Program-made: the position numbers and the translations under genes
Virus record (IMG/VR): IMGVR_UViG_3300029922_000252
Span: 1-28,636 of that record
Source of the DNA: a virus
Reading direction: 5' to 3' (one strand)
Length of the DNA: 28,636 bases
Shown here: positions 4,397 to 25,820 of the stretch, one piece after another
How the letters are laid out: each line of letters begins with the position of its first letter
Numbering within the stretch: position 1 is the first letter of the stretch
The notes under the pieces: model-generated
What the model was told of the DNA's origin: nothing
The model's database searches: none
Seen by the model: the letters and a program-made list of their open reading frames with translations, nothing else

Positions 4397-5848
4397 ATGG
4401 GCAGTCAAGCATACACAGGTAATGGATGGCCCGACTTCAATGGCTGGGTTCAGAATGCGTGGGGCTCAGGCGAAGAAGGTGGCTGGTGGGGCGGAGTGCC
4501 GAATGCTACGAACCTCGTGTTCGGCCAAAATCCAGCTTACTACCTGGATGACTTCTTGGCTGTCTATCCCAAGTTCTTTGGCCTACCTACTATGATCGCC
4601 AATTGTGCGACCGTGGCCGGCAGTAACCAGATTCAAGTACCGTCATTGGCAGGGCTGAACTTCGGGCAGTTTCTCACTTCGCCCGGCACATTTACAAAAG
4701 GCACAGTAGTTACTGGCATAAGCAGTACACTAGGTACCGCTCAGGCCACCACACATGGTGAACAGCCGCAGGGTGCCTTGCCGGGCAATACACTTACACT
4801 GAGCACAGTTCCGCCGAATGGCGTGCTTCAGTTGCTAACCCTAAATGGGGTCTACCAAACACCCGGCATTGACTACACTCTGACAGGCAGCACGATCAGC
4901 ACGACTGCTGAGGTGCCTCCAGATGGAGAACTCTGGGCTACGTGGTTGGTCCAAAATCAGACTTATCCGGTACACGGCGAATCACCACTGGGCGCGCTGC
5001 CCGGCAGCATATTCACGCTCAGTAGCGCGCCGCCTGATGGCTCACTGCAGACGCTGACTGTTAACGGTGTGTTTTTGACTGCCGGCACCGACTACGTACT
5101 TACTGGCCGGACTATAGTGTTGGCATCACCGTTGACTAGCGGCACTCTGTACGCCACTTGGTTGGTAGCGACCGTGGGCTATGTGGTAACTCTGAGTTCA
5201 GCCGCATTGGTTACGTCAAGCGGAGCCGTTCTGAACGTGTACCAGCAGCCACCTGTCCCGATCTCCGTTATACAGATGTATCTGAACTTGGCTTGGTCAT
5301 CATTAGTGCAGTTACGCTGGCAAGAGCAGTGGCCAGTAGCCATGGCATGGATGATCGCCCACTACTGTACTCTCTTTGCAAAGAGCGATGCTTCTGAGGT
5401 TATGGAAACGCTGCAGTCCGCTATGCATGGCGAAGCCCCTGTAGGCGCATTTCCTGGAACTGTGTACACGCTGAGTCAAGCACCTCCAGGTGGCATGCTG
5501 CAATCGCTGACGCAGAACGGTCTATTTCTTACGCCTGGTGGCATGGACTACACATTGAATGGGGCCACTGTCACGCTGACAGTACCTACCAGTGATGGTG
5601 ATACGCTCTGGGCTACATGGCCGATACAGATGCAGGCATTCACCAGCGGCCAGCCTAATGGTGCACAGATTGCAGCGCAGGGCTTAGCTGGTGGTATCCA
5701 AGCTAGTAAGAGTGTAGGCGATGTATCAGTGAGCTACCAAGTTCTGACGTCACTAGAAGAATGGGGCTCGTGGCAACTTACTTCGTATGGCCAACAACTC
5801 GCAACTGCTGCTAAAGTCATGGGTGCTGGTCCAATGGTCGTATACTAG
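4397..5848 (+). CDS. DUF4054 head-tail connector with inserted beta modules
   Basis: This 483-residue protein looks like a DUF4054 head-tail connector (normally about 130-160 residues) enlarged threefold by insertions. The core is visible in pieces: YLDDFLAVYPKFFGL (about 49-63), PISVIQMYLNLAWSSLVQLR and MAWMIAHYCTLFA (about 286-328), and a C-terminal part with SKSVGDVSVSYQ and LTSYGQQLATAAK. Between these lie a split module A (69-113 and 261-282), two module B copies (120-185, 193-257) nested within it, and a third module B (344-410) before the C-terminal core. The modules probably decorate the neck surface. GGAG at 4386-4389 lies 7 bases before the ATG at 4397; an out-of-frame ATG at 4392 is too close. 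The core family call is moderately strong and the repeats are plain to see. Confidence 0.8.
   Translation: MGSQAYTGNGWPDFNGWVQNAWGSGEEGGWWGGVPNATNLVFGQNPAYYLDDFLAVYPKFFGLPTMIANCATVAGSNQIQVPSLAGLNFGQFLTSPGTFTKGTVVTGISSTLGTAQATTHGEQPQGALPGNTLTLSTVPPNGVLQLLTLNGVYQTPGIDYTLTGSTISTTAEVPPDGELWATWLVQNQTYPVHGESPLGALPGSIFTLSSAPPDGSLQTLTVNGVFLTAGTDYVLTGRTIVLASPLTSGTLYATWLVATVGYVVTLSSAALVTSSGAVLNVYQQPPVPISVIQMYLNLAWSSLVQLRWQEQWPVAMAWMIAHYCTLFAKSDASEVMETLQSAMHGEAPVGAFPGTVYTLSQAPPGGMLQSLTQNGLFLTPGGMDYTLNGATVTLTVPTSDGDTLWATWPIQMQAFTSGQPNGAQIAAQGLAGGIQASKSVGDVSVSYQVLTSLEEWGSWQLTSYGQQLATAAKVMGAGPMVVY
4754..4951 (+). repeat. Module B copy 1 in connector
   Basis: Residues 120-185 of the connector. It begins HGEQPQGALPGNTLTLS, carries the core LTLNGVYQTPGIDYTLTG and ends WATWLV. 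About 66 residues, strongly beta-like. Confidence 0.75.
4973..5167 (+). repeat. Module B copy 2 in connector
   Basis: Residues 193-257. It begins HGESPLGALPGSIFTLS, carries the core LTVNGVFLTAGTDYVLTG and ends YATWLV. It follows copy 1 after a seven-residue linker. Confidence 0.75.
5426..5626 (+). repeat. Module B copy 3 in connector
   Basis: Residues 344-410. It begins HGEAPVGAFPGTVYTLS, carries the core LTQNGLFLTPGGMDYTLNG and ends WATWPI. It sits in a different loop of the DUF4054 core from copies 1 and 2. Confidence 0.75.
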
Positions 5849-5984: not shown

Positions 5985-6538
5985 CCGGGCCCAATATCAC
6001 AGTAGCGCGTAAGTCTGGTGCGGCTGCCGCTTTGAAGCGTATTGTAGGTCTTGGTAAGTTAGCTGCATACGTCGGCATTCCATCATCTACTAGTCGTGAT
6101 CGCTCAGCGCAGTTACTTAGCATGGCCGATAATGTGAAATCTAAGCGCAAGAAAGCTAGGCTGAAGAAGGCTGCCGATGCGGATGCAACCAATGCTGAAC
6201 TATTGTTCATTTTTAGCAAGGGCAGTCCACTGCGCAAACAAAAAGCACGTCCAGTATTGGAGCCTGCTGTTGAGGCCGATGGTAATCGGCAAGCGATTGG
6301 GCGTGAATTGGCTGGCGCGGCTAAGGCATCCATTATCGGTGACCGAGCTAAGGCGCTTAAGCAGACAAAGCGTGCGGCATTAGCCGGGCAGAACGCGGCT
6401 CGGCGCTGGTTCACCGACCCAAGAAATAACTGGGCGCCAAATACGCCATCTACTATTAAGGCCAAGGGTAGCGCTCGACCGGGAATTGATACCGGCGCCA
6501 TGCGTGCTGCGATCATAGGAGTAGTAAATGAAGAGTAA
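5981..6538 (+). CDS. Tail completion / neck protein (gp10/gpS-like)
   Basis: This 185-residue basic protein probably caps or joins the tail to the connector. The C-terminal part carries the pattern typical of tail-completion and virion-morphogenesis proteins: NNWAPNTPSTIKAKGS followed by RPGIDTGAMRAAI, equivalent to the family's W.pN...T...K.....LidtG.mr.si. The first two thirds are Lys/Ala/Arg-rich and helical. ATG 5981 overlaps the upstream stop (ATGA) and is preferred over ATG 5957, which lies within the Cys-rich peptide gene. The 3' end overlaps the start of the first exported protein by 11 bases, so the cassette that follows is tightly joined to the morphogenesis operon. The exact subfamily is uncertain. 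Confidence 0.7.
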   Translation: MTGPNITVARKSGAAAALKRIVGLGKLAAYVGIPSSTSRDRSAQLLSMADNVKSKRKKARLKKAADADATNAELLFIFSKGSPLRKQKARPVLEPAVEADGNRQAIGRELAGAAKASIIGDRAKALKQTKRAALAGQNAARRWFTDPRNNWAPNTPSTIKAKGSARPGIDTGAMRAAIIGVVNEE

Positions 6539-9500: not shown

Positions 9501-9848
9501 ACCCCTAGCTGTACCGGCGGCACATGGAGTGGAAGTACTGCGAGCATCATGTACTCACGAACCGGTTCACTCATCCACCTCAACATCGACATGACTACCG
9601 GCACAAGTTTCTGCACGTCAACAACAGGATGGACGAATATAGCTTTACCATGGGTCACATCAGCAAGTAATCCGGTTGTGCAGGTGATCACGTGCGCTAA
9701 CACTAACATTTCGGGATCTATGGCGATGGGTTGGGGACAGATTATGGCAAGCTCAACCAACCTTGCTATTTTTAACGGCAACTCACAGAATATCGCGACA
9801 GCAAGCGGTCAAGCGATTCACTGCACAGGTGACATTTTTACGCAATGA
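6528..9848 (+). CDS. Exported fibre-like protein with sialidase-type and NHL propellers
   Basis: This 1106-residue protein begins with a clear Sec signal peptide (MKSKFLSVLIFLAVTAASVKA, cut before Gln). Next come an N-terminal module shared with the 12995 gene (QINWPVLTG, module A at 52-113, YGMPYTN...YTC..AGW) and a tail-fibre type SGGTG at 171-175. Four Asp-boxes, S.D.G.TW-like, are at 237-244, 651-658, 713-720 and 779-786, as in sialidase/BNR propellers. Between the first and second lie five or so NHL/Vgb-like blades (about 305-590; TDPSGNLWVSN, FDADGYLWTSA, TDTHGNVWSAN). A C-terminal domain of about 300 residues with paired Cys follows. AGGAG at 6517-6521 supports the start. A receptor-binding or glycan-binding fibre, or a secreted carbohydrate-active protein, fits. 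Catalytic sialidase residues were not identified. Confidence 0.85.
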   Translation: MKSKFLSVLIFLAVTAASVKAQTQVNPASQINWPVLTGTTAPTQYCPTATTGSIVSGSASVTLASTSGVFTNQVAVGAGIPTATSVVSINSTTRVVTLSQAATVTASGVNLYFSSYGMPYTNLASGRAYTCTTAGWTAATDTVYPGVTSDGSNGLNVAGTIVTGTPIATSSGGTGSNNAVGALQNLGGVALSPALSGAPSVLASPAAPPTIAGMTTLPDGALMATYSVSSVFYQQLSFDNGVTWQPATAMPTPTGGYSLGYVSLNTLSNGTVFESGSMGNGSQSVSQYNVGTIQNPITSYAAGAYAAAINTDPSGNLWVSNLSGNSVQKFSYSAGSWSLTWTYSTSLSSPNGVAFDTSGNGYVLNTGSSTITELSTSGALVKTITIATLASGCLSPASIAVDGGSNIVVACSGTLSGVNVYAWTNAGTAIAYSLTASTQPNVLVVVPSGVATYAGYLYVASSSAATVTVVNVAHSVVGTFPGVKGAQAITTDSSGNAWIAGALVAAISPVGATVNAVYTGGSIYGLTFDADGYLWTSAYNSGYVKKWNTTTGAYLGGFPVGAGPQGMATDTHGNVWSANSAANSISKIPATSLPDTISWAGYTQIPISGQSWCYPSAGMVQVSSLIYILPVWCAANGTGSNTPFSSGILRSTNSGSTWAYTQLTAAVTSGYVITDDYDETTGQLMLNGDVVLIARHEGLPSGDPYGTYARFVSHDSGVTWSGPVDVLSVANPGVCAGAVVTGCPIAGKPSLALDTTGNLYFVGRGAIAGSYSEHVASISHDEGSTWTAPVDLTLAGNRDNYDALTLMANGAVSMLQTAANPSQVSFSQLLPNGIPIPVNTNFGTGIVFSNPTLTGVTVKGFGSVSTAAGTTGDIWDFLQATPSATTALAGYIVPGTSTSVQFGAYKSTINTAGFVWNCTSNFFTRVQCGILDPFGNLTVPGVVKSAGAQNTLLTVAGIETNDASGNQGTVPLAGSGPSVLSGSVMSGPATVTPSCTGGTWSGSTASIMYSRTGSLIHLNIDMTTGTSFCTSTTGWTNIALPWVTSASNPVVQVITCANTNISGSMAMGWGQIMASSTNLAIFNGNSQNIATASGQAIHCTGDIFTQ
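6681..6866 (+). repeat. Module A copy in the 6528 protein
   Basis: Residues 52-113: GSIVSGSASVTLASTSG, then VAVGAGIPTATSVVSI and a closing strand ending in NLYF. It is closely matched in position and sequence by residues 51-112 of the 12995 protein, so the two N-termini are paralogous. Confidence 0.65.
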
Positions 9849-9852
9849 TTTC

Positions 9853-9880
9853 TCTGCGCGCACCGCAGTGTCTGCGCAGA
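9853..9880 (+). other. Inverted repeat between two exported-protein genes
   Basis: TCTGCGC (9853-9859) and GCGCAGA (9874-9880) form a 7-bp stem with a 14-base loop in the 58-base gap before the 9907 gene. No T-run follows, so it is at most a weak terminator or an mRNA processing/stability hairpin. Confidence 0.35.
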
Positions 9881-9906
9881 ACAATAATCAACAAGGAGAC
9901 TTCAGC

Positions 9907-12840
9907 GTGAAACGCTTTGCTGTATTGCTTTTCTTGATCTTGTCAATTATCACATGCTTTGCTCAGACGCAGATTGACCCGACTTACCAGATTAAATGGA
10001 ATTTGCTTTCCAGTTCTGGTGCGCCATCGATCACTTGCACGCAGAATGGCAACTACACTGTCTACCCCTATGGGGCGGAGTGGGGCCAGTCTTATCAAGA
10101 CACGACGAACAATGTCGAGTACAAATGCACAACCTCTGGATGGGTGAAGAATCTACCCGCAACGGGAGGCACGCTGACCGGACCGCTGTCTCAGACCGTC
10201 ACAAATCCTCCCGCGAACCCAGTAGGGTCGCTCTCGTTTTATGGGATGTATCATGCGCTCACGTTCAATGGGCCTGAATTCGTGCAAAGTGTATGCACAT
10301 CAACGTGGTGCTCAGAAGGTAAGGGAATATCGACATCTAGCGTGGTGGTAACTTCACCCGGTTGGAATCGAGGATCTTTCTCCGGATTCACTACGCCACC
10401 CCAAGGTGGCTGGAGTGAGCGAGGAATCCACTATTCTAGCATCACAAATTATGGAACAGGGCAACTCATCGACTATGCCTTCAAAACTCAGGCTGGCATT
10501 GGAGATTTTCAAGGCACCTACGATGTAATGTGGGATTATGGCGAAGGCTTGGCTCCAACAGATGAAGGATTTTCTTATTTTGGCTCTCAAGGCGGGGAAT
10601 CGCCCACTGCCAATGCTGCCTCTGTAGCTCTCGGTGGTTTTGGAACAGTGTCACTGTCGGTGACGTGCCCGAGCACAAATGATTGCAACTTTGGCGGCAG
10701 CCGCTATCTCCTCGACCTCTCTCAACCTGTTGCGGCGGGATATGCTACAGGGTATGCAAGCTCCCAGCATTTCTTTGGAAGTTCGACGGCTATTCTTCCT
10801 GGGGCAACCGCTGAAACTCCAGAACAGTACACGGCGGTCATCACGAGTGGCACAGTCACACCTTCGGTAGCGTGGGGTACGCTAGTCAGCGATCTACTCA
10901 CCCCAATTAGCGACCCTGTAGGTACAGGGACAACCGCTGAGGTCGCAACCGTTACCATGGCGGGAGGCAGCGGTAGCGCAGTCACGACATCGACTCTCGC
11001 GTGCTTTGCTGGAACATTTCACGAGCAAGCGTACCCCGCGAGTGTTTCGTGGAACAGCGGGACTAGTACACTTACTGCCACGTTTAACCTTCGCCAACCG
11101 CACGAGCACGGAAGTTATGTCTACTTCGGGGGAATGTGCGGCGATTACGTGGTGTTCACTGCGAACATCTCCGATGGCTTGCGGTACCCTGTGGACGTGT
11201 TAGGCGCTATCGACGCAACGCATCTAGTGACGCGCGCCTTTGCATTTGGACAAAACCCGTCGTTAGTACCGTCTAGTTATGGTAATACCCTGTTCATGGC
11301 CACGGGGGCCACGGGGCTAAGTCGCTCGGGCTCAACGGTTGCCATGCATATTGGCTTGTGGTCAGGAAATCTACCCTACTACAACGGTGCATCAAAACTG
11401 TTCATTTCTGGTGACGCCACGGGAAAGTTCAATGGTCTGTGCACGGCTGCGACTTACGCTACAGCAACCAGCACTCTTACCTGCACGCAGGCAGGCACGA
11501 GTGGTGACACATCCACTGCGGCCACGATTGCAGTGGGTGACAATGCCTATGGTAACGTCGATTTCACGATTTACCCCGGCGCAGAAGTCCTCAGTTCCGA
11601 CAATTTGCAACAGAACATTCTCGCAAGTCCGAGTGTGCGAACTGGTAATTTGAATGTTGAACCTAACAACACGACTTGGGGCATAGGCGACTCTGTCGAG
11701 GAAGAGCACGCAACCGTCAGAGCGTACCATACGCAAAACCTTAGCTTGAGCGTACATAATCCCGGTCAAGTTGGCACCGCAAACGCACTGCTTGAGGGGA
11801 TCAAGCTTAATTGGGGCGGGTCTGGCATAACTGGAAACGGCTATGGACCCAACCATGGATCTGGCAATAACGCCATGAACATCTCTAACGGTGCACCAGT
11901 TACGAATTATCAATACTATGGTGGCGTTCAACCGCCTCCAAATGGATTTTCATTCACTGGACCTGTTGGCCAGCTTATTGGTAATAGTCCTGCGTACGGT
12001 TCTTATGGTCTGTATTACTCCGCTCCCTTCACGGCTACCGTTGGTGGAGTAACTGTCGGCGGGGTCAATGATCCTAACTTCTTCTATTCTCCCCTTGTCA
12101 TGACCGGGGCGGCAGGACTCGACACTTTTACGTATACGCCATTTAATGACACCTTAAAATTGGTGATGAATAGTGCAAGTGGCGGCTGCACATTCACGTT
12201 CGCTCCAACCGGATACTCCAATTCTGGTAGTGGATGTATCTCTAGTCCCTATATTACTGATCAGTCGTCACCACAATCTATTGCTGGTGGTTCAAACGCA
12301 AATGGCACTGTATATACTTCGTGGAGTGCTTATGCACCACTCCCTGAATGGGATCAGTGGGTTCCTACGTCAACAGGGTACTGGTGGGAAACTGGATGGG
12401 CTGCTGATACTGGCGGTGGATTTTCAATCATGCAAAATGCTGCTCCAACTTCAAATAAAGCACCGTATCAGGTTGTTAGTCGTAGGACATGGAGCTTTTA
12501 CAATAACGTAACCAACACTGCGAATAACTATGATGTTACGTTGAAAGCTCAAAACGAAAGTAGCTCAAGTACTAAGACGTTTTGTTTGGGCAACTGCACA
12601 CTTGCAGCGACAAGCCAACTGCCTCTCGTCGGGACCGCGACCACAACTGCAAGCGCCTCTGATTCTGTTGCAGTGCCTGGACTCACTTCAAGCGGGCACT
12701 GTGGAGCGCCAGCGGCTACCAATGCAACTGCGGCAGGGCTAACCGGCGTCTACATTGGCATGGCTGGCAGCGGCACAGTGGCCCTTTACCATAGCGCGAC
12801 GGCGGGTGGAACGTTCAATGTGATTTGCACGCCGAACTAA
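9907..12840 (+). CDS. Exported fibre-like protein of unknown fold
   Basis: This 977-residue protein is read from GTG 9907, placed 8 bases after AAGGAG (9893-9898); longer in-frame starts upstream overlap the previous gene and would bury the signal peptide. VKRFAVLLFLILSIITCFA is a Sec signal peptide, followed by QTQIDPTYQIKW, kin to the mature starts of the 6528 and 12995 proteins. An EYKCTTSGW motif closes the N-terminal module. LPATGGTLTGPLSQT follows, a motif typical of phage tail fibres. The large middle is beta-rich with many Gly, Thr and paired Cys (VQSVCTSTWCSEG) and matches no family I know. The end, SSGHCGAPAATNATAAGLTG to FNVICTPN, looks like a compact disulfide-stabilised terminal domain. 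A virion or secreted adhesin is a reasonable inference; enzymatic activity cannot be judged. Confidence 0.85.
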   Translation: MKRFAVLLFLILSIITCFAQTQIDPTYQIKWNLLSSSGAPSITCTQNGNYTVYPYGAEWGQSYQDTTNNVEYKCTTSGWVKNLPATGGTLTGPLSQTVTNPPANPVGSLSFYGMYHALTFNGPEFVQSVCTSTWCSEGKGISTSSVVVTSPGWNRGSFSGFTTPPQGGWSERGIHYSSITNYGTGQLIDYAFKTQAGIGDFQGTYDVMWDYGEGLAPTDEGFSYFGSQGGESPTANAASVALGGFGTVSLSVTCPSTNDCNFGGSRYLLDLSQPVAAGYATGYASSQHFFGSSTAILPGATAETPEQYTAVITSGTVTPSVAWGTLVSDLLTPISDPVGTGTTAEVATVTMAGGSGSAVTTSTLACFAGTFHEQAYPASVSWNSGTSTLTATFNLRQPHEHGSYVYFGGMCGDYVVFTANISDGLRYPVDVLGAIDATHLVTRAFAFGQNPSLVPSSYGNTLFMATGATGLSRSGSTVAMHIGLWSGNLPYYNGASKLFISGDATGKFNGLCTAATYATATSTLTCTQAGTSGDTSTAATIAVGDNAYGNVDFTIYPGAEVLSSDNLQQNILASPSVRTGNLNVEPNNTTWGIGDSVEEEHATVRAYHTQNLSLSVHNPGQVGTANALLEGIKLNWGGSGITGNGYGPNHGSGNNAMNISNGAPVTNYQYYGGVQPPPNGFSFTGPVGQLIGNSPAYGSYGLYYSAPFTATVGGVTVGGVNDPNFFYSPLVMTGAAGLDTFTYTPFNDTLKLVMNSASGGCTFTFAPTGYSNSGSGCISSPYITDQSSPQSIAGGSNANGTVYTSWSAYAPLPEWDQWVPTSTGYWWETGWAADTGGGFSIMQNAAPTSNKAPYQVVSRRTWSFYNNVTNTANNYDVTLKAQNESSSSTKTFCLGNCTLAATSQLPLVGTATTTASASDSVAVPGLTSSGHCGAPAATNATAAGLTGVYIGMAGSGTVALYHSATAGGTFNVICTPN

Positions 12841-12994
12841 GTTGTTGGCACTGCGGCGTCTGGGTGGCAAACAAGCAAGAGAGGACGAAATAGTTGATTG
12901 GCGCAAGATCGAAATGCCGCTGCTAGAATTCAAAGTGTAGTGCACGAATGCTGCCTGAGTAAACAACCATATTACAGGCATCAATAGGAGCACC

Positions 12995-15900
12995 ATGATT
13001 AACAAGTTGGCCACACTTCTTCTCATCTTTGTCGGTGCAGCCACTGTTGCCGCTCAGACACAGGTGAACGCCGCTACACAAATCAACTGGTCTAATGTGT
13101 CAGGTGTTGGCGTGCCAACTCAGTACTGCCCTACGGTGGTGTCTGGTAGCACTATTCTTGGCTCTATGGTCGTAGCACTGGCATCTGTCAACGGTGTTCT
13201 TGCGAATCAGGCAGTTACCGGCATTGGTATACCAACAGGGGCAACGGTGGCTAAACTCAACATTGGCGGCACCGCTGTAATATTGTCTGCTCCGGCCACA
13301 TCCACGGCTAGCAATGTCAGCCTGTCGTTCAGCAGCTACGGAATGCCGTATACCAACACAACCACTGGCCAGCAATACACCTGCGGAGCAGCGGGCTGGG
13401 CACTTGGTGCCGGTGGCAGTGGGCTTACCTCATTCACATCCGGAAATCTCGCACCGTTATTCACGGCCACACTCGGCGCGAACCCCACAATCGCTCCGGC
13501 ACTGACGTTTGCACTTAGCAATGCCGCACAGAATTACCTACTCGCTGGCCCTGCATCAGGTAGTGCTGGTGTGCCTGCTTATCGGACATTAGTAAACGCA
13601 GATTTTCCAAGCACACTTGCGCCCACTATCAGTGCAGCCAACATGACCGCGTTCCCAGTTCCAAGTCTGGCTGGTAATATTACAGCTACCACCAACTCTA
13701 CTCTGACTACGCTGCCTTCACTTGCACTTCCATATGCACAGCTCAGTGGTACTGTTCCTACGTGGAATCAGAGTACTACGGGCAATGCTGCTACGGCGTC
13801 AGCGCTTAGTACAACCGGTACAGCAGGTACGTTCTGGGGATCGTTCGGCGGGACACAGCAATATGCCGCAGTTCCTACACCGCACTTTTTTGACGTGACG
13901 AGTCCAGTGTATGGTGCGGTTTGCAATGGGGTGGCTGATGACACGGCAGCTTTGGCAATTGCGTCATCTGCAGCCAATGGTGTGGGTGGGACAGTCTACA
14001 TTCCTCCTGTAGTCGGCGCGGCGGGTATTGGGACAATTTCTGGCTCGACTATGTCAGTCACCAACTTTACAGCCGGAACTACATACCATGTCGGACAAGT
14101 GATTTTTGGCCCAGGGATTCCGACTTCTCCGCCAACAACCGTTACAGCCATTCCTTCTGGAGGAGGCGTCGGAAACTACACGATCAGTCTGTCCACATTG
14201 TCAATCAGTTCACCGATCACGATAACAGGTTATGCCGCTTGTATGACGGCCTCCCCTCTTGTGGTGACAAACGCTAATCTTTGGGTAGACGGATCAATTA
14301 TGGCATCAGCGTCTATACCCTCTGTGGTGCAGTGGGGAAGCTCAACAACTCGCAACAACAATCACAAAATCTATGGAACTGGCAACATAGACACCAACAA
14401 TTTAGCTGCACGAGCGATCGACCTAAGCAATTACTCTATAGTGGAAATATCTGGAATTATGGTCTATCATGCAGCGTCGGTCGCGGGCATCGATATAGGC
14501 GACACGAGTAACCAGTCTGGTGGTGCACTTATACACAACATAACGGTTATGAATCCAGCTGGCAGTTCCTACACAACTGGTGTCCCTGGAATTTGGGCAC
14601 ATCTTGGTACCGACTCGCATATGGATGACATTACGGTTATCGGATACTATTATGGAGTCCAGAACTCAGTTCACAACAATCTTCCATTCAGCAACATTCA
14701 TGTATGGGGCTTCGGAACAAATGGCGGTTGGACAGGCAGTAACCTGCCTTATACCTGCTTTCTTGATTCTTTCGGGCAGCAAACCTGGGCTCATGATGAG
14801 TGTGATACCGCAATTAAGTACGGACTTGAGGCTGCATCCTACGAAACGGTGGTAGAGGACTTTCTTTACTATAACAACGCTACTTGGGGATCTAATGGCT
14901 TCGTAACTGGAATCGAGTTCGATCAAACAGCCGGACTTGGAGTAGTAAATGGAGCAAGGTTCATTGGGCAATCTGGGCACGCTCTTGCCGCTGATGTGAC
15001 TGTGAATGGTGGAAATAACGTATCTAGTCTCCAGATCTTTGGGGTCAACGAAAGCTCTTATGTCAACCAAGAGAGCGCCAACATACTTAGCACAGGAGGC
15101 CAGGCTGCACTCGTTGGCAACCTTACCGGAAGCGGAATGCTAAAATTGCCGGCACTTAGTTCAGCAAGTGCAACGAACTGCTTACAGGTCGATACAGCGG
15201 GAAATATCACGAACACTGGCACAGTTTGCGCAACTCCTGGCGCAATTACCGGGATGCTTGCCGGCTACATTCCTATTGCGGCAACAGGTACTACTATTGT
15301 GGGCAATGCGCATCTGAATGATGGTGTAACTACTACAAACACACTTACGGCCACTGAGGCATTTGCAGCGCCCACCATCAATGGTGTAGCACTGACGGCA
15401 GCTGGTTCATCTTCGACGTACTTAAATGGTGCTGGCAGTTACACTACGCCAACCGGCAGCGGCACCGTGAATAGTGGCACCGCCTACTCGCCTGCTTATT
15501 ACCCAGTTGGAGGCGGTTCACAGGTAAGCGGTGTAACGCCATTCACCGGAATTGCTTACTACACACCTAGTACGCCTCCAGCGGCAGCAGTGGCTGCAAA
15601 TGTCTACGGATTGTGGTCTGGTACCTGCAGCGCATCCACGTTCCTGCGCGGCGATGGTACTTGCGCCAGCGCTACTGGAAGCACTGGACTGTCTGGAATG
15701 ACGTCAGGCCAAGTGCCTATAGCCGCGTCGGCCAGCACTGTAGCTGGCAGCGAGCCACTAGCAGGATCGGGTGCCGCGATAACTACTGGCCCAGCGAGCG
15801 GAGTAACCAGTCTTGATGTAACGGAGTTTACCGGCACTGGGGGCCAAGTGGCGGATAGCGGCGTCGCGGTTGGTTCACTAGCCACATTGACTGGCGTGCA

Positions 15901-17089
15901 GTCACTTACCAATAAGACTGTAGACGGCGTCACACCCACAACGATGGGCTACTTAGACGCCACTAGCAGTATTCAGACACAGCTTAACGGAAAGCAAGCA
16001 TCAGGCGCAGTGACCACAGTTTCAGTGGTTACAGCTAACGGTCTTCAGGGAACTTCTTCTGGTGGTGCGACGCCTACTCTGACACTTAATGTCGATTCTA
16101 CGCATGTGCTTCCTGTGAACACCGGCTCAGCTACGAGCTTCTTGAACCAGGCGGGCGGCTACACCACTCCTGCTGGAACGTATAGCCTGCCTGCAGCTAC
16201 CGCTTCTGTACTAGGCGGCGTCAAACCTGACGGCACAACACTTACAAACAGCAGCGGGGCCATCAGTGTAACTAATCCATACAATGCGGCAGCTGTCGCC
16301 ATTACGGGTGGTTCTATTGATGGTACTGTGGTTGGAGGAACAACGCCAGCAGCAGGGCATTTTACCAGCGTATCCACTGGAGGAACCACTACAGCGATCA
16401 CGGGCGGAACGGCTGGCACAGAAGCTACTGCAGAAGGCACGGCACCAACCACGATAACGGGTTCTGGGACCTTCGATATTTTCTATGGTGACTCAACTCT
16501 GCACGCCATTAAGGAGTGCGCAAATTCTACTTCCTCTGCGATTGGAACGTGCTTGCCCGTAGCGGAGATGCCAGCATCGGTGACGACAAATGATCTTCTT
16601 GCTTCAGCTTCCAACGGCTATGGAACCGTGGATACAGGCATCCTCTACACGAATGTGACGCAGACAACAATCACTCCAGCCGCTAATCAGATTTGCGTTT
16701 ACGGATCGACCGCGAAGACCTGTACGCCGACTACTACGCTGCCATCAGTCGCGCTACCAGTGGTAACTACAACTGTATCCAGCGGATCGATCTCTGCAGT
16801 CACGACGAACAACACCTACATCATCTGCACTACAACTTGCAACGTGACACCCCTTCAAGCCGCAGCGGGCGTGCAACTTTGTGTTCGCAATGCACCAGGG
16901 TCGGCGACGGTCATTACATTGAACGCTCTCGGGGCCAGCAACTACTATGAGTTAACCACGCACGCCGGATGGGGAACGGTGAACCACGCTGTAGTTTCAG
17001 GAGGGGCGGCAACAGACTCAATCTGTTTGGTGGGATATGACACGACGCACTATGCCGTAATGAGCTACACGGGGACTTGGGCAGACTGA
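12995..17089 (+). CDS. Exported tailspike/tail-fibre hybrid with beta-helix
   Basis: This 1364-residue protein has a signal peptide (MINKLATLLLIFVGAATVAA, cut before QTQVN). Module A at 51-112 and YGMPYTN...YTC follow as in the 6528 protein. From about 298 a pectate-lyase-3 type right-handed beta-helix begins (YGAVCNGVADDTAALAIA, GGTVYIPP at 331-338). It is interrupted by a second module A (346-412) before resuming with SPLVVTNANLWVDGS, and continues to about 745. The C-terminal half is a long fibre with LTNKTVDG (971), IQTQLNGK (993), VLGGVKPDGTTL (about 1072) and IDGTVVGGTTPAAGHFTS (1108), all classic tail-fibre signatures. It ends in a Cys-containing head. AGGAG at 12986-12990 precedes the ATG. 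The preceding 154-base gap holds no gene and no clear promoter. Polysaccharide binding or depolymerisation is likely by family; active residues were not assigned. Confidence 0.88.
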   Translation: MINKLATLLLIFVGAATVAAQTQVNAATQINWSNVSGVGVPTQYCPTVVSGSTILGSMVVALASVNGVLANQAVTGIGIPTGATVAKLNIGGTAVILSAPATSTASNVSLSFSSYGMPYTNTTTGQQYTCGAAGWALGAGGSGLTSFTSGNLAPLFTATLGANPTIAPALTFALSNAAQNYLLAGPASGSAGVPAYRTLVNADFPSTLAPTISAANMTAFPVPSLAGNITATTNSTLTTLPSLALPYAQLSGTVPTWNQSTTGNAATASALSTTGTAGTFWGSFGGTQQYAAVPTPHFFDVTSPVYGAVCNGVADDTAALAIASSAANGVGGTVYIPPVVGAAGIGTISGSTMSVTNFTAGTTYHVGQVIFGPGIPTSPPTTVTAIPSGGGVGNYTISLSTLSISSPITITGYAACMTASPLVVTNANLWVDGSIMASASIPSVVQWGSSTTRNNNHKIYGTGNIDTNNLAARAIDLSNYSIVEISGIMVYHAASVAGIDIGDTSNQSGGALIHNITVMNPAGSSYTTGVPGIWAHLGTDSHMDDITVIGYYYGVQNSVHNNLPFSNIHVWGFGTNGGWTGSNLPYTCFLDSFGQQTWAHDECDTAIKYGLEAASYETVVEDFLYYNNATWGSNGFVTGIEFDQTAGLGVVNGARFIGQSGHALAADVTVNGGNNVSSLQIFGVNESSYVNQESANILSTGGQAALVGNLTGSGMLKLPALSSASATNCLQVDTAGNITNTGTVCATPGAITGMLAGYIPIAATGTTIVGNAHLNDGVTTTNTLTATEAFAAPTINGVALTAAGSSSTYLNGAGSYTTPTGSGTVNSGTAYSPAYYPVGGGSQVSGVTPFTGIAYYTPSTPPAAAVAANVYGLWSGTCSASTFLRGDGTCASATGSTGLSGMTSGQVPIAASASTVAGSEPLAGSGAAITTGPASGVTSLDVTEFTGTGGQVADSGVAVGSLATLTGVQSLTNKTVDGVTPTTMGYLDATSSIQTQLNGKQASGAVTTVSVVTANGLQGTSSGGATPTLTLNVDSTHVLPVNTGSATSFLNQAGGYTTPAGTYSLPAATASVLGGVKPDGTTLTNSSGAISVTNPYNAAAVAITGGSIDGTVVGGTTPAAGHFTSVSTGGTTTAITGGTAGTEATAEGTAPTTITGSGTFDIFYGDSTLHAIKECANSTSSAIGTCLPVAEMPASVTTNDLLASASNGYGTVDTGILYTNVTQTTITPAANQICVYGSTAKTCTPTTTLPSVALPVVTTTVSSGSISAVTTNNTYIICTTTCNVTPLQAAAGVQLCVRNAPGSATVITLNALGASNYYELTTHAGWGTVNHAVVSGGAATDSICLVGYDTTHYAVMSYTGTWAD
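13145..13330 (+). repeat. Module A copy 1 in the 12995 protein
   Basis: Residues 51-112: GSTILGSMVVALASVNG, then TGIGIPTGATVAKL, ending in VSLSF. It is followed by SSYGMPYTN, identical in arrangement to the 6528 protein; the flanking DNA (AGCAGCTA.GGAATGCC.TA) is also similar between the two genes. Confidence 0.65.
14030..14230 (+). repeat. Module A copy 2 inserted in the beta-helix
   Basis: Residues 346-412: GTISGSTMSVTNF, then GQVIFGPGIPTSPPTTVTAI and GVGNYTISL. It splits the pectate-lyase-3 type fold directly after GGTVYIPP, where family members normally continue straight to the next beta strand. Confidence 0.65.
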
Positions 17090-18600
17090 TGAAAAAGATA
17101 ATCATTCTCACGCTTTTCCTTCTTCCGGTGTCGATCAACGCTCAGATACTCAGCGCGATCGCATGGCAGCAGGCGGTCGTAAGTGGCACAGTGGTGACCT
17201 CCCATCTCGGAGGCACCGCAGCGTCCCTCTCGACCACGCCTGACACAGGGAATGCGCTGAACCTGTACTACGATGGCTTTGTCACTCCTGCTGTTATGAG
17301 TTCTCCATCGTGGGGATCGATGCATGTTTACTGGGGAAGCCCCGACGCATCAGCTCCCAACTGGGGGGCGGCACTTTATGCCGATACGCAGATTACTGGT
17401 ACCGTGAACACCTTAGGCACGACGGTAACGTGGGTATCCGGTACTCAGTTTCCAACTTCAGCCCAGTTTTCCGGGAGTTGGAAAGGCGCGATCATGGTTA
17501 TCAACGGAGCACCATGCCGGATAACTGCAATCGGAAGCGCCACTTCTCTTACGTGCATATCGAGCCAAGGTACACACACAGGTGTGGTCTATGCGCTTCA
17601 CATTCCCGGCGCGCTCGTCTGTTCGGCCTTTAGCAGTACTGTGGCGACGAACGGGTGGAACACTATTACGCCGACTGGCTGCGGAACGCCATCCGCTAAT
17701 ACGCAATACTGGACCAGCATGATCACGGCGTCTAGCACCCAGGCCGTTGGGTTTAACGGATCATATGGACAAGGGTGTCCTGATAATCAGAACAATTTCA
17801 TCGGTTCTGGAGGAACATGGTACCAGACTCTTGGAAGTTTCACCAGTAATGCCAGTTTTCCGGGCACGGCGAATATCTCTTCTACGGGATATGATCCAGG
17901 TGATGGATGCCCGGCATCCTATATTGATGTTACCTACCAAACCTCGGTCCAGTATCCTCTTGTAGCCTATGTGCATGGAACCTGTGATTCCTCCACCGCG
18001 GCCTGCGCGATCGCCATGCCGCCCGTCGTGGCTGGTCAATCGATAGTAGTTTTCGAAGAGTCCACATCTACGGTATCGACGCCTACCGACAGTGCATCCG
18101 ACACCTTCACTCAGATCGGATCGGGGGCAACAGTAACTGGAGGATCTGCAACCTACTACGAGTCCGCTTACTACATCGACAGACCCACAGCAGGAGCCAA
18201 TCAAGTTACATGCAACTTTGCCGCGCTTAACAAGGACGTATGCCACGTGATCGTGTTTCAAGGCAACCTAGCTTCGGGGTCCTTGGATAAAAACTGCTAC
18301 GATACCGCAGTCCTGACGACCGCTTCATTTACCGGATGCGCGACGGCCTCGACCACGCAGGCTACGGAGCTAGTTCTTTCCTTCTTGTTCAACGACAATA
18401 TTGCCAGTGCAAGCAACGCGAATTTCTTCACGACGCCAGGTCCGTGGACTTTGCTCGGATCAAGCATCGGATCGGGGATATCACCTATTCAAATTGGCGT
18501 GGCAATGCAAACTTCTTCTTCCACGGGGACGTTTGCTGGAACCGGAACCGCATATGGGGGATCGCCGCAAATATCGACAACTACCGCAACATTTAAGTGA
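17089..18600 (+). CDS. Exported beta-rich protein, unknown function
   Basis: This 503-residue protein starts at ATG 17089, overlapping the upstream stop (TGATG), so it is probably coupled to the beta-helix gene; an upstream GTG at 17077 adds four residues and is less likely. MKKIIILTLFLLPVSINA is a short, textbook signal peptide followed by Gln. The mature chain is Ser/Thr/Gly-rich and beta-like with many spaced Cys (APCRITAIGSATSLTC, CDSSTAACAI, NKDVCHVIVFQG, KNCYD). The last part, from about 290, with AGQSIVVFEESTS and VFQGNLASGSLDK, resembles lectin-like or cell-surface beta-sandwich repeats in a general way. I do not recognise a family. Position within the exported cassette suggests a fibre partner or a secreted binding protein. 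Confidence 0.8.
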   Translation: MKKIIILTLFLLPVSINAQILSAIAWQQAVVSGTVVTSHLGGTAASLSTTPDTGNALNLYYDGFVTPAVMSSPSWGSMHVYWGSPDASAPNWGAALYADTQITGTVNTLGTTVTWVSGTQFPTSAQFSGSWKGAIMVINGAPCRITAIGSATSLTCISSQGTHTGVVYALHIPGALVCSAFSSTVATNGWNTITPTGCGTPSANTQYWTSMITASSTQAVGFNGSYGQGCPDNQNNFIGSGGTWYQTLGSFTSNASFPGTANISSTGYDPGDGCPASYIDVTYQTSVQYPLVAYVHGTCDSSTAACAIAMPPVVAGQSIVVFEESTSTVSTPTDSASDTFTQIGSGATVTGGSATYYESAYYIDRPTAGANQVTCNFAALNKDVCHVIVFQGNLASGSLDKNCYDTAVLTTASFTGCATASTTQATELVLSFLFNDNIASASNANFFTTPGPWTLLGSSIGSGISPIQIGVAMQTSSSTGTFAGTGTAYGGSPQISTTTATFK

Positions 18601-18605
18601 GGCGT

Positions 18606-20402
18606 ATGAATCGAATACTTGCCATATTCACATGTCTGCTCATGATACCGCTGGCTTACGGTCAGGGGGCGTGTCCATCGGGCCTTCCGGCAACAGGAAC
18701 CCACTGTTACTTCGTCTCGGCAGCCGGGGCGGACACAAACAACGGAACCAGCGAATCAACGCCGTGGCTTCACGCTCCTGGAATGCCGAACTGCTCCAAC
18801 ATGTGCACCAGCACGACATTGACGGCTGGAAACGGTGTGGTCTTTCGTGGGGGCGATACATGGCACTTCGGCAACTCATCGGCTGCGCCTTATACTGGCG
18901 GAACGCTTGATCTCCACACACTTCTTTTTAGTTCGGGAAACGATACGACGTGTGTGGGTTCACCGCTTGTCACCACCGGGTGTATCTACTATGGCGTGGA
19001 TCAGGCGTGGTATACGGGAGGTTCTTGGGCGCGGCCAATCTTCACTGGAGACAACTCCACATCAACCTCAAACGTGGCAAGTTGCACGTATCAGGTCCCA
19101 AACACGCCACCCGATGTAACCAACACATTAGTTAGCTTGGCGAGAAATGTGTATTTTGACAATTTCGAACTTACAGGCTTGTGCGTAAATGCTTCAAGTC
19201 CGACAAGTGGCACCACTGGAACTTATGTTGCGTATCTGGGTACAGGAATAAGTGGCTTTGGCACGGTATTTGAAACCAACCTATATATCCACGGATGGAC
19301 GGCAACATCCACGGCGGGAACTGGGAACAACACTATTCCAGTTACTGTGATTGGTGGCGGAAATGGCGGATTGCAGAACATATTCTCGATTGTCGTAGAC
19401 GGAAGTGATTCGCTACCTGGAGTCGCGGGGTGGGGGACTTTTCCATCCTTTTATCATTTCAAGGATTCAATCATTCGTTATGTGACGCAAGGCGTAGGGC
19501 AGTTTTGCCACGATATTCACGACAATATTTTCGAGCACTTTTTCAACCCGTCTGTTCCTACACACGGCAACACTTTGGAGTGCAACGACGACAATCCAGG
19601 AACAGCCACAAATCAGCCACAGAATACCCCGAATGTTTTTTACAACAATATTGTTAGGCACGACGACGCTGGATTCTCTACCGGTAATCCTAGATTGTGG
19701 TTTTGCCCGGAAGGAGTGCCTGAGTACTGGTTCAATAACCTTCAATATGATTTAACTGCAGGCGCAGGGCAAAACTGGGACTATGCGGGTCCGACCGGCT
19801 ATAGTTGTTCAAATACTGGCGGTCAATTCATGTTCAACAACACCATCGTCGGCGGATCGCAGCCTTGTTACATCTCAACCGTCAGTCATGGTGGGCAGTA
19901 CCTGACAGTACTAAATGAGCACCTGATTGCCACACCATTCGACACCGGAAGTACGGCCTGCACAGGAGGTGCGAGCGCTAGCAATGTGGCGCAGACCGAT
20001 GTGACGGCGGTCAGCCAAGGATACCTCATGACCGGAGGAACAGGTGGAACAGGGTACACGTGTTCCAATGAGAGCACGACTCCATGCTCCCCAACGACGG
20101 GAAGCACCTCCACTGTGTCCGCAGGTGCTAACCATCAAGCCTACTGTACTGCTCTGGCAGGATACACGTCTGAACCCGCCATTGGTACGGACGCAGCCAA
20201 CGCCTGCAAGTACGGGACTACGGACGGATGCGCTTACAACACCACAGCACACACTATGAGGTGCCCGGCGCAGTTTGCAGTTGCACGGCCAGTAAGCACG
20301 GCTTGGGACGCCGGGGCCTACGAGTTCAGCACGGGGGCTGTTTCAGGCTGGTTGGTCAGGAGTGGAACGACGATTTCAAGCGGGGCAACAATCATACAGT
20401 GA
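18606..20402 (+). CDS. Exported parallel beta-helix protein
   Basis: This 598-residue protein has a signal peptide (MNRILAIFTCLLMIPLAYG, cut before Gln). The mature start GACPSGLPATGTHCYFVSAA and then GADTNNGTSESTPWLHA are typical of secreted right-handed beta-helix proteins with a DxNxGTxxxPW entry. FRGGDTWHFG and many Asn-rich turns follow (FNNTIVGG, FYNNIVRHDDAG, DIHDNIFEHF), each probably a coil of the helix. The end RPVSTAWDAGAYEFS is the usual last coil of this fold. ATG 18606 follows the previous stop by five bases with GAGG just upstream; GTG 18597 is an alternative. Proteins of this fold bind or cleave polysaccharides. It lacks tail-fibre repeats, so it could be a secreted accessory factor and not a virion part. 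Confidence 0.85.
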   Translation: MNRILAIFTCLLMIPLAYGQGACPSGLPATGTHCYFVSAAGADTNNGTSESTPWLHAPGMPNCSNMCTSTTLTAGNGVVFRGGDTWHFGNSSAAPYTGGTLDLHTLLFSSGNDTTCVGSPLVTTGCIYYGVDQAWYTGGSWARPIFTGDNSTSTSNVASCTYQVPNTPPDVTNTLVSLARNVYFDNFELTGLCVNASSPTSGTTGTYVAYLGTGISGFGTVFETNLYIHGWTATSTAGTGNNTIPVTVIGGGNGGLQNIFSIVVDGSDSLPGVAGWGTFPSFYHFKDSIIRYVTQGVGQFCHDIHDNIFEHFFNPSVPTHGNTLECNDDNPGTATNQPQNTPNVFYNNIVRHDDAGFSTGNPRLWFCPEGVPEYWFNNLQYDLTAGAGQNWDYAGPTGYSCSNTGGQFMFNNTIVGGSQPCYISTVSHGGQYLTVLNEHLIATPFDTGSTACTGGASASNVAQTDVTAVSQGYLMTGGTGGTGYTCSNESTTPCSPTTGSTSTVSAGANHQAYCTALAGYTSEPAIGTDAANACKYGTTDGCAYNTTAHTMRCPAQFAVARPVSTAWDAGAYEFSTGAVSGWLVRSGTTISSGATIIQ

Positions 20403-20403
20403 A

Positions 20404-20475
20404 TAGGCACTCGAAGAATCGTGTGTACTCCGGCAGACCACTAAGAAGCACGCTGATCCACTCAAGAGGTGCCTA
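20404..20475 (+). promoter_or_regulatory. Inverted repeat enclosing start of the 20475 gene
   Basis: TAGGCAC (20404-20410), directly after the stop of the last exported-protein gene, is the exact complement of GTGCCTA (20469-20475), which covers the end of the ribosome site and the A of the start codon. If folded, it would hide the start of the first gene after the cassette unless ribosomes translating the upstream gene open it. The stem is only 7 bp with a 58-base loop, so this is tentative. Confidence 0.3.
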
Positions 20476-21062
20476 TGATCTCAGTACAAGAAGTCATTAC
20501 CGACCCAGACATGACGGCCCCCCAGCCATACCAGATACTGCGGTCTACGGGCTCTTATATAGCCGGTGGTTTTCAAAGCATCACTACGACTATACAGTGC
20601 TTTGGCCCGGTGCAGCAGGCCAGCAATCACGAAATACAGATGCTACCTGAAGCTGACCGTGTAGGCAGCATCAGTGCGTTCTGGAGCACGCAGCCTATCT
20701 ACACTACACGTGGTACAGCAGCAGTACCATCTGTACAAGGTGCAGTTCCTGCGGGTGATGTTCCTGGTACAGTTTACTCACTGCCTACTGTGCCTTCAGG
20801 CGGTGTGGTAGACCTATACCTAAACGGTCTGCGGCTAACGCCGAGAACTGATTACGTGTTGAACGGTCTGACCATTGCACTTGTAAGTCCGACTGCATCG
20901 GGCGCGAAGTTGTGGGCGCAGTGGAATATCACGGCTAATGTGCAAGCCGCAGCCAGTGACCTTCTAGTGTATGAAGATACTCAGTTCAGAGTTCTACAAG
21001 TGTATCATGACGTTGGATGTGGCTACTGGAAGGCTCTTGGAACAAGAATGGCGGCGGCCTGA
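20475..21062 (+). CDS. Neck/tail structural protein with one module B insertion
   Basis: This 195-residue protein is the first tail-side structural gene after the exported cassette. ATG 20475 is preferred because AGAGG sits five bases upstream; GTG 20469 would add two residues. The flanking parts, DPDMTAPQPYQILRSTGSYI, PEADRVGSISAFWS and VYEDTQFRVLQVYHDVGCGY, look like one small beta-rich domain of a neck or adaptor protein found just before the neck terminator in related phages; I cannot name the family. Residues 91-152 are a module B copy (VPGTVYSL, LYLNGLRLTPRTDYVLNG, WAQWNI), so the native protein would be about 130 residues. The stop is two bases before the next ATG. Confidence 0.75.
   Translation: MISVQEVITDPDMTAPQPYQILRSTGSYIAGGFQSITTTIQCFGPVQQASNHEIQMLPEADRVGSISAFWSTQPIYTTRGTAAVPSVQGAVPAGDVPGTVYSLPTVPSGGVVDLYLNGLRLTPRTDYVLNGLTIALVSPTASGAKLWAQWNITANVQAAASDLLVYEDTQFRVLQVYHDVGCGYWKALGTRMAAA
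20745..20930 (+). repeat. Module B copy 4, in the 20475 protein
   Basis: Residues 91-152 of the 20475 protein. PGTVYSLPTVPSGG, LNGLRLTPRTDYVLNG and the closing WAQW match the three copies in the connector gene 15 kb upstream. Confidence 0.75.
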
Positions 21063-23986: not shown

Positions 23987-24207
23987 AGCACGGCTCCCAA
24001 GAAGACGTAAGTTGGGACCCCGTGCCATTTCCCACCCTAGATGCACTAGTGTGGACTCCAGTTGCCGCAGGACTTTGGCGCCAGCACGAGATCAGCGATG
24101 GAACTTACACCATACGCGACTTGCTAGATGTGCTAGAGTTCTTAGACGTGAAGGCTGAAAATGAGCGACGCTATCGTGCATGGCGAGAGGGGCAGGCGGC
24201 ACAATGA
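23567..24207 (+). CDS. Tail assembly chaperone, -1 frameshift fusion (long form)
   Basis: Slippage by one base at TTTTTTG (23974-23980) would join 138 residues of the short form to 75 residues from the -1 frame, giving a protein of 213 residues (GT-type fusion). The added part reads GLKHGSQEDVSWDPVPFPTL and later VAAGLWRQHEISDGTYTIRD, ending at TGA 24205-24207. It has no plausible ribosome site and no independent start near its beginning, yet it looks like real protein. In lambda-type systems the extra part recruits tape measure protein, while the common part contacts tube protein. The stop overlaps the tape measure start (ATGA). Confidence 0.75.
23974..24025 (+). promoter_or_regulatory. Programmed -1 ribosomal frameshift signal
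   Basis: The heptamer T TTT TTG fits X XXY YYZ in the chaperone frame (GAT TTT TTG GCC TAA). After a 7-base spacer a stem-loop can form: GCACGG (23988-23993) with CCGTGC (24020-24025), then TCCCA (23995-23999) with TGGGA (24013-24017), a small internal loop and a 13-base apical loop. The stop codon sits in the spacer. This is textbook geometry for -1 frameshifting. Confidence 0.75.
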
Positions 24208-25820
24208 ATGTTCTAGACGAGTATCTCATCAAACTTGGAACTTCAGTTGATGCTGCTGGCTTTTCGCACTTTCACAATGCACTGCACGAGGCACGTCAAG
24301 CTGTTGACTCTAACATGCAGTCAATGGCTAGGGCAATGCTAAAAACTTCGGCAGAGCTTGTTAGCGGTTTTGCAGCCATCGGTAGTGCTGCTGTGGGACT
24401 GGCTGATAAAGTCGGCATGGCTGATCAGGAGTACAGACTCTTCGCGTTGCACATGTACATGTCTAAGGATGCAGCGCGCAGCCTGAAGGTTACCATGGAC
24501 GCTCTAGGGCAGCCCATGGAGAATCTGATGTGGGACCCAGAGCTGCGTGAAAGGTCCAAACAGCTTATTGCAGACCAGAAAGCCATGGCCACTGACATGG
24601 ACTTTGACACTCAGATGCGTAAGATTCGTGATGTGCGGTTTGAGTTCACGCGTATGGAGGTAGAGGTAAAGTATCTTGGTATGCATGTGGTAACCGACTT
24701 CATGCGTGCGCTAGGCATGGGTCCTGATGATCTGCTGAAGAAGTTGCGGCAGGTCAATGATTGGATCATAAAAAACATGCCGCAGATCTCCGCCACTATT
24801 GTCAAGTACTTCAAACCTATTTGGAAGGATATTGTTACTATCATGAAAGACGTAGGTCACGTCTTTCAAGATTTTGCTACTCTGTTTGATAATGTGGTTG
24901 GCATGCTATCGGGTGATAAGGCGCTGCAGGGTGTGGCTACATTCGATAAGTTTGCGCATTCTATATCTGTGGTTGTCGACTTCTTGACCAAGGTCACAGA
25001 CTTTTTAGTGAAGATTACCGGGCTGCTTACGGGCACTCTTATTGGTGGTACAGTGGGCGGACTGCTTGGCTCCATCATCGGCGGTGTAGCGGGTATAGCT
25101 GGCGGTCCTGTAGGTATAAGCGTTGGTATACTCGCAGGCGGCGCGGCTGGTACAGCCATCGGAGGCGGCGCAGGCGCGGTCGTCGGTGGGGTGTTCGATC
25201 TGTACAGACACTATGCACTAGATCAATCCGACCTTACAGGTACGCTACATATGACCAGCGTACCAGGAATCACTGAGCAGTCATGGCGAAATCTGTCCGG
25301 TGCCACGGGTGGCACTGTTAGCCCGGAGTTGCTATCGGCGTTGGCGAGGTCAGAGTCTGGCTCACTCGGCATGGCCGCCACTAGTTCGAAGGGCGCTGTT
25401 GGCTACATGCAGCTCATGCCGGACACGGCCAAGCAGTATGGCGTCGACCCGCATGACGCATTAGGGAACTTGCGTGGTGGCACAGCCTACATGCGTGATT
25501 TGATGAAGCGCTACGGAGGCAACGAGGCTTTAGCACTGGGTGCTTATAATGCAGGCCCCGGTAGAATTGACGCAGTTCTTGCTGGCAAGGCTACGCTGCC
25601 AGAAGAGACTAAGAACTACATTGCTTCGACGCTGTCTCGTGAAGGAAAGTCTGGTAGTGTGCAGATCGGCACGGTCAGTATTCAGATAGTTCAAAAGCCA
25701 GGCGAGAGTCAGCAGGAACTGGCTAATCGTACTGTGGCGGCTCTGCGGTCCACACAAGATAAACGAGCGCAACGCAATATGGCGGAATTCAACACTCTGA
25801 GTTGGAGCTACGGAGCATGA
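24204..25820 (+). CDS. Tape measure protein with lytic transglycosylase domain
   Basis: This 538-residue protein probably sets tail length and helps DNA cross the cell envelope. ATG 24204 overlaps the chaperone stop (ATGA). Residues 1-265 are largely helical with repeated Phe/Met/Lys patterns. About 273-334 is a Gly/Ala/Ile-rich hydrophobic stretch (GGTVGGLLGSIIGGVAG), as in tape measures that insert into membranes. From about 375 there is an SLT (lytic transglycosylase) domain: catalytic Glu384 in LARSESG, GYMQLMPDTA at 400-409, and AYNAGPGRI from 447. The enzyme would open peptidoglycan locally during infection. The last 60 residues (VSIQIVQKPGESQQ) are a short tail. It is short for the role, suggesting a tail well under 100 nm. 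Confidence 0.85.
   Translation: MNVLDEYLIKLGTSVDAAGFSHFHNALHEARQAVDSNMQSMARAMLKTSAELVSGFAAIGSAAVGLADKVGMADQEYRLFALHMYMSKDAARSLKVTMDALGQPMENLMWDPELRERSKQLIADQKAMATDMDFDTQMRKIRDVRFEFTRMEVEVKYLGMHVVTDFMRALGMGPDDLLKKLRQVNDWIIKNMPQISATIVKYFKPIWKDIVTIMKDVGHVFQDFATLFDNVVGMLSGDKALQGVATFDKFAHSISVVVDFLTKVTDFLVKITGLLTGTLIGGTVGGLLGSIIGGVAGIAGGPVGISVGILAGGAAGTAIGGGAGAVVGGVFDLYRHYALDQSDLTGTLHMTSVPGITEQSWRNLSGATGGTVSPELLSALARSESGSLGMAATSSKGAVGYMQLMPDTAKQYGVDPHDALGNLRGGTAYMRDLMKRYGGNEALALGAYNAGPGRIDAVLAGKATLPEETKNYIASTLSREGKSGSVQIGTVSIQIVQKPGESQQELANRTVAALRSTQDKRAQRNMAEFNTLSWSYGA

Follow-up and report, generated by a model that had tools for sequence, protein, structure and literature searches.

Accessory domains are a familiar feature of phage tail fibres and of major tail or capsid proteins, and Fraser and colleagues are said to have described Ig-like accessory domains on phage structural proteins. 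In the lactococcal 936 phages, BppA-type carbohydrate-binding modules (CBMs) are found in the neck passage structure (NPS), Dit, and the tail protein MTP-TpeX, and some of them bind host cells (PMC6669499). Domain shuffling has been reported in neck passage proteins (PMC10684548). Staphylococcus phage 812 shows outer beta-sandwich domains on its adaptor and stopper, and its stopper decoration proteins touch putative whiskers; the external beta-sandwich of the stopper is absent from the E217 and Pa193 homologues (PMC12886913). The domains XD2 and XD3 mediate the binding of tailspikes to each other (PMC8825819; PMC11414711).

The window described here is the whole 28,636-nucleotide stretch of the IMG/VR virus record IMGVR_UViG_3300029922_000252. 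It encodes a tail sheath and thus belongs to a contractile-tailed phage. Its adaptor and its stopper carry four copies of the same module, termed module B.

Adaptor, stopper, and the four module copies

The product of 20475..21062 (+ strand, 195 aa) is a phage stopper, or head-completion protein, of the SPP1 gp16 type, since fold, profile, and PHROG agree outside the insert. The sequence-only reading had rightly called it a neck protein. phrog_939 is matched in two stretches flanking module B (E 4e-12), and the stopper-family profile matches the Pam3 connector (E 0.025). In Foldseek comparisons with the PDB, the predicted model (pLDDT 86) resembles Pam3 8hdr_A (TMt 0.63), XM1 7kjk (0.59), and SPP1 gp16 7z4w (0.55), with none of the PDB matches reaching E 0.001; the fold also resembles those of the Pa193 and E217 stoppers. 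The gene starts with ATG, preceded by AAGAGGTG. The product of 4397..5848 (+ strand, 483 aa) is the phage adaptor (head-tail connector, DUF4054/phrog_302), which matches PF13262 with 53.3 bits against a cut-off of 23.9 and phrog_302 with E 1e-18. The adaptor-family profile further matches E217 gp27 (E 0.02) and XM1 gp1 (E 0.007). The predicted model of this connector is of moderate confidence (pLDDT 70), lower in its first two module copies.

Three copies of module B are located in the connector. Copies 1 (X1, 4748..4957) and 2 (X2, 4970..5179), both on the + strand, form a tandem pair nested in another accessory module, module A, whose first (4589..4747) and last (5180..5239) parts, also on the + strand, were delimited by alignment and with a module A profile. 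Copy 3 (5420..5638, + strand) occupies a site common to the connectors of related phages. Copy 4 (20727..20939, + strand) comprises residues 85-155 of the stopper, is inserted between residues ~84 and ~156, and is predicted to be all-beta (pLDDT about 95); an earlier placement at 20745-20930 had the position right and the limits slightly too narrow.

A tblastn search of the window with the stopper protein retrieves the three copies in the connector and nothing else (E 1.2e-15, 4.5e-12, and 7.5e-12), with 41, 44, and 49% identity to the neck copy, in agreement with the match first noticed by eye in the letters. The alignment of the four copies contains 20 invariant columns, and local alignments of the neck copy with the connector copies score 128-158, whereas shuffled sequences average 28 (sd 5-6; z 17-23). 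The neck and connector copies are thereby confirmed as homologous. The closing motif, described as WxxW, takes that exact form in three copies (LWATW, LWATW, and LWAQW) and is YxxW in X2 (LYATW). There is no fifth clear copy in the window: the next-best profile match, within 17077-18600, is weak (E 0.005 over the window's ORF set, ~26 columns) and perhaps due to chance.

Some neighbouring genes deserve mention. Module A (GQFV..GIPxGTxV..I) occurs in the connector (4589-5239) and also, with E 7e-8 and 2e-5, in two fibre-like proteins, where it lies at residues 41-115 (gene 6528-9848) and in the N-terminal part (gene 12995-17089). A 14-kb cassette of fibre-like genes (6528-20402) separates the adaptor/neck1 gene from the stopper gene; in most relatives the two are merely 1-2 kb apart. 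In the related contig 3300029922_000078, fibre-like genes also lie just upstream of the stopper, with sequences unrelated to those of the window. By eye, the long fibre-like ORFs of the cassette begin with apparent Sec signal peptides, an unusual trait for virion components synthesised in the cytoplasm, and several share the motif AQTQ.NPA.QINW after this segment. Similar genes are present in related phages (loci L005 3054-8734; L088 1664-3501; L094 3-1574, - strand; L090 2-1261, - strand). The ORF at 24180-25820, of ordinary appearance, probably encodes a tape measure protein whose residues 380-494 form a transglycosylase-like domain (phrog_2013).

Insertion into two unrelated scaffolds

Searches of IMG/VR with both protein families yielded about 40 contigs. 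Among these, module-less relatives of both the stopper and the adaptor close up at exactly the same junction. Stoppers without the module measure 116-122 aa, compared to 190-198 aa with it; phrog_939 or phrog_302 gives one uninterrupted match to the bare forms, and in module-bearing forms the profiles match on either side of the insert. The module-less relatives and the shared junction therefore indicate that module B is native to neither family and represents a true insertion in both, as had been proposed for two unrelated scaffolds. A segment native to phrog_939 that resembles the connector repeats by convergence or chance is practically inconceivable, as the z-scores of 17-23, the skipping of the segment by the phrog_939 profile, and the module-less relatives rule it out and no point in its favour was found.

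Connectors occur bare, with module A only, with module B only (one case), or with both. A tandem B pair nested in module A, together with a further B copy, is seen only in the window's connector among those found; the X1-X2 tandem is an extra addition in this lineage. Near relatives of X1 or X2 do not form a supported set on the module tree, and the pair may derive from copy 3 or from the connector of another phage. The closest relative by neck gene, 3300029922_000078, cannot date the tandem pair because its contig lacks connector and head genes.

Fold and nearest known domains

Module B is best read as an accessory beta-sandwich of ~70 residues (jellyroll/Ig-like) of the XD2/XD3 and CBM_X2 type, as judged from the predicted structure. 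The predicted module aligns with residues 1-250 of CBA120 TSP4 (7rfv) over 66 columns at 2.5 A (prob 1.00), as expected for a jellyroll. In BFVD, the matches include a predicted "neck protein" besides several tailspikes of the Kuttervirus type. The module profile matches TSP4 205-248 and TSP2 34-80 and 116-153, which are the XD2/XD3 regions; these matches are weak (10-12 bits), with E-values computed over three targets only, and hhalign gives a probability of 36% for TSP4 209-244. A tailspike K1 capsule depolymerase is matched in sequence with E 6e-9. Sequence likeness to XD2/XD3 is weak, and T4 gp10 shows no sequence match to the module.

CBM_X2 (PF03442) scores 26.0 bits against the whole connector (E 1e-5), which lies under the Pfam cut-off of 28.9 bits. 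It is weakly matched by 12 of 47 module copies (best E 1.5e-4), most copies having no match. Weak profile matches extend to DUF4183 of Pfam, and the motif NG..DY..sG..i is common to module B and these families. A fold match to trimodular cellulases with CBM46 was also obtained. Neither the connector nor the module copies match the Ig-like families of Pfam, and BppA is absent among the sequence matches of the module.

The weak matches to CBM_X2 and the CBM46-containing cellulases raise the possibility that the modules bind carbohydrate and provide neck and tail with additional adhesion, weak and multivalent, to the host envelope or to extracellular polysaccharide, comparable to the BppA-type CBMs of the 936 phages. 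The closing motif opens with a conserved aromatic residue (Y/W) that may face the solvent, in line with such a role. The nearest solved relatives, however, sit in tailspike assembly regions, and the related X2 module of the CBM_X2 kind bound neither cellulose nor the cell surface in vitro, showing a weak interaction with CBM3a (PMC9022034). The neck ring, moreover, is far from the host surface unless multivalency extends its reach. Glycan binding is accordingly kept as a secondary possibility, with perhaps one chance in four.

Distribution and history in related phages

Joint presence was counted in 26 distinct related phages with both genes, two rows of which use the connector of an identical or near-identical contig. 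The module is present in both proteins in 19 phages, in neither in 6, and in the adaptor only in one (3300046697_000008, which has a module-less stopper). On the scaffold tree, its presence in the adaptor corresponds to one gain or loss and that in the stopper to two; with so few changes, joint presence may reflect common descent and does not require functional coupling.

The concordant state of adaptor and stopper in 25 of the 26 phages bears on a structural explanation, in which the modules of these neighbouring rings touch and clamp the rings together. Decoration proteins of phage 812 span the same adaptor-stopper junction, which they are believed to strengthen (PMC12886913), and the connector and neck copies of one genome are slightly more similar to each other than those of different genomes (0.371 versus 0.335; permutation p 1e-4). 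This small excess could stem from old conversion, co-evolution, or shared composition. Clamping is nevertheless hard to reconcile with the adaptor-only phage and with 3300050026_000067, which combines a module-less stopper with a module-bearing third protein, and it leaves the tail-fibre-adaptor and stand-alone copies described below unexplained. It is considered unlikely.

In most of these phages, whole-contig searches reveal a third module copy, which lies 11-13 kb downstream of the stopper gene and past the end of the window. It forms the C-terminal part of a protein of 127-145 aa (271 aa in one phage) that starts TPNIGLQ.P...NWQVPTNYNWNLLD. The gene follows a putative gpI-type tail protein and directly precedes long fibre-like genes, and its product is tail-fibre-adaptor-like. 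The third site was found in 12 related phages (loci L087-L095, L097, L099, and L100). Three phages contain near stand-alone module B ORFs of 79-103 aa (L091 1124-1432, - strand; L096 761-997; L098 1093-1344). Such extra copies in other virion proteins fit a re-use of the domain on neck and tail. Two module-less phages (contigs of 70 and 39 kb) have no copy anywhere on the contig.

In a tree of 66 module copies, the copies are grouped by host site, with 8 label changes compared to 33.7 in shuffles. The fibre-adaptor copies form one group (94/96 support), those of the window's connector are placed among other connector copies, and the window's neck copy pairs with that of 3300029922_000078 (100/95 support). 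Tests for one clade per site do not reject a single origin of the connector or neck copies (p 0.28-0.29), a result that is no proof of it. The fibre-adaptor copies show no excess of within-genome similarity to neck or connector copies.

The sequence-only reading had suggested a domain that spreads within the genome, perhaps by recombination, and had proposed to count copies per phage and see whether they cluster by genome. Multiplicity is indeed the rule, with at least two copies in 16 of 18 module-bearing contigs examined; the clustering is by site and not by genome. An actively mobile domain, spreading now between genes of the phage, would account for the four or more copies in two genes, for the X1-X2 tandem found in the window only, and for the several copies per phage in relatives. 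Against it stand the clustering by site across phages, the fixed insertion sites, and the divergence of the window's four copies, which share 47-59% DNA identity. Where neck and connector copies have the same residue, the codons agree at just 7-12 of 28-34 positions, and with so few shared synonymous codons recent copying or conversion between the two can be dismissed. Present-day mobility of the neck/connector pair is thus largely refuted and highly improbable as an explanation. The jump of the module between genes is old and was followed by vertical inheritance at each site. Joint presence, clustering by host protein, and the few shared synonymous codons show the adaptor-stopper pairing to be ancient: the domain is fixed in the lineage and is not moving about the genome at present.

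Outside IMG/VR, the phages of INPHARED contain no relative of either whole protein, save a fragment covering 9% of the connector. Bacterial genomes yielded no relative of the connector and a single one of the stopper, in a Brevibacillus prophage that lacks the module. Bare, module-less versions of both proteins are encoded on a Brevibacillus centrosporus contig (locus L103 8887-10348), which hints at the hosts that the family at large may use.

A possible docking role on the neck

Docking or decoration on the exterior of the neck is favoured over glycan binding and ring clamping and has about an even chance of being the right reading. According to this proposal, an old insertion placed module B in a loop of each of two neighbouring neck rings, adaptor and stopper, where it would stand out from the neck surface. 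There, the modules would dock other proteins or decoration, such as neck whiskers, fibres, or partner modules, in the manner of XD2/XD3 in branched tailspike complexes. In solved myophages, the neck holds 12 adaptors and 6 stoppers, numbers that would place ~42 copies on the neck of this phage. Surface display, part of the original suggestion, is plausible. The symmetry counts against docking of the tailspike kind: XD domains are trimeric on trimeric spikes, in contrast to the 12- and 6-fold adaptor and stopper rings.

A bolder extension of the docking reading, put forward with considerable doubt, holds that the modules of adaptor, stopper, and tail-fibre adaptor constitute one self-recognising system, pairing like XD2 of TSP2 with XD2 of TSP4. 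Additional fibres would then attach at the neck besides the end of the tail, and the adaptor ring of this phage would gain further docking points through its nested tandem pair.

Comparison with known systems

As far as found in the literature searched, the presence of the same module in both adaptor and stopper, paired across a lineage, is undescribed. It points to a decorated neck that serves for attachment in these soil phages, and it connects the jellyrolls of tailspike docking to neck proteins, namely the DNA-gating rings of adaptor and stopper. Related phages with both modules, neither, or one provide a clean natural comparison.

The closest domains, XD2/XD3 of Kuttervirus CBA120 TSP4 and TSP2 (T4 gp10-like), share with module B a length of ~60-70 aa, a beta-sandwich (predicted for module B), and adjacent N- and C-strands. 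They lie near the N-terminus of trimeric tailspikes, whereas module B is inserted within the adaptor and stopper. The Ig-like accessory domains are likewise small beta-sandwiches on unrelated virion proteins; module B differs from them in lacking a Pfam Ig match and a programmed frameshift and in being inserted into loops instead of appended. In the phage 812 neck, the adaptor beta-sandwich on the outer surface and the external one of the stopper occupy comparable places (PMC12886913), but they are not presented there as one duplicated module and are set beside module B by description only. The 936 phages offer the nearest parallel for the re-use of one domain type across several virion proteins, the neck included. 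Their host proteins are the NPS fibre and tail proteins, which carry another type of CBM, partly through a frameshift; in the phages described here, the adaptor and the stopper carry module B in frame.
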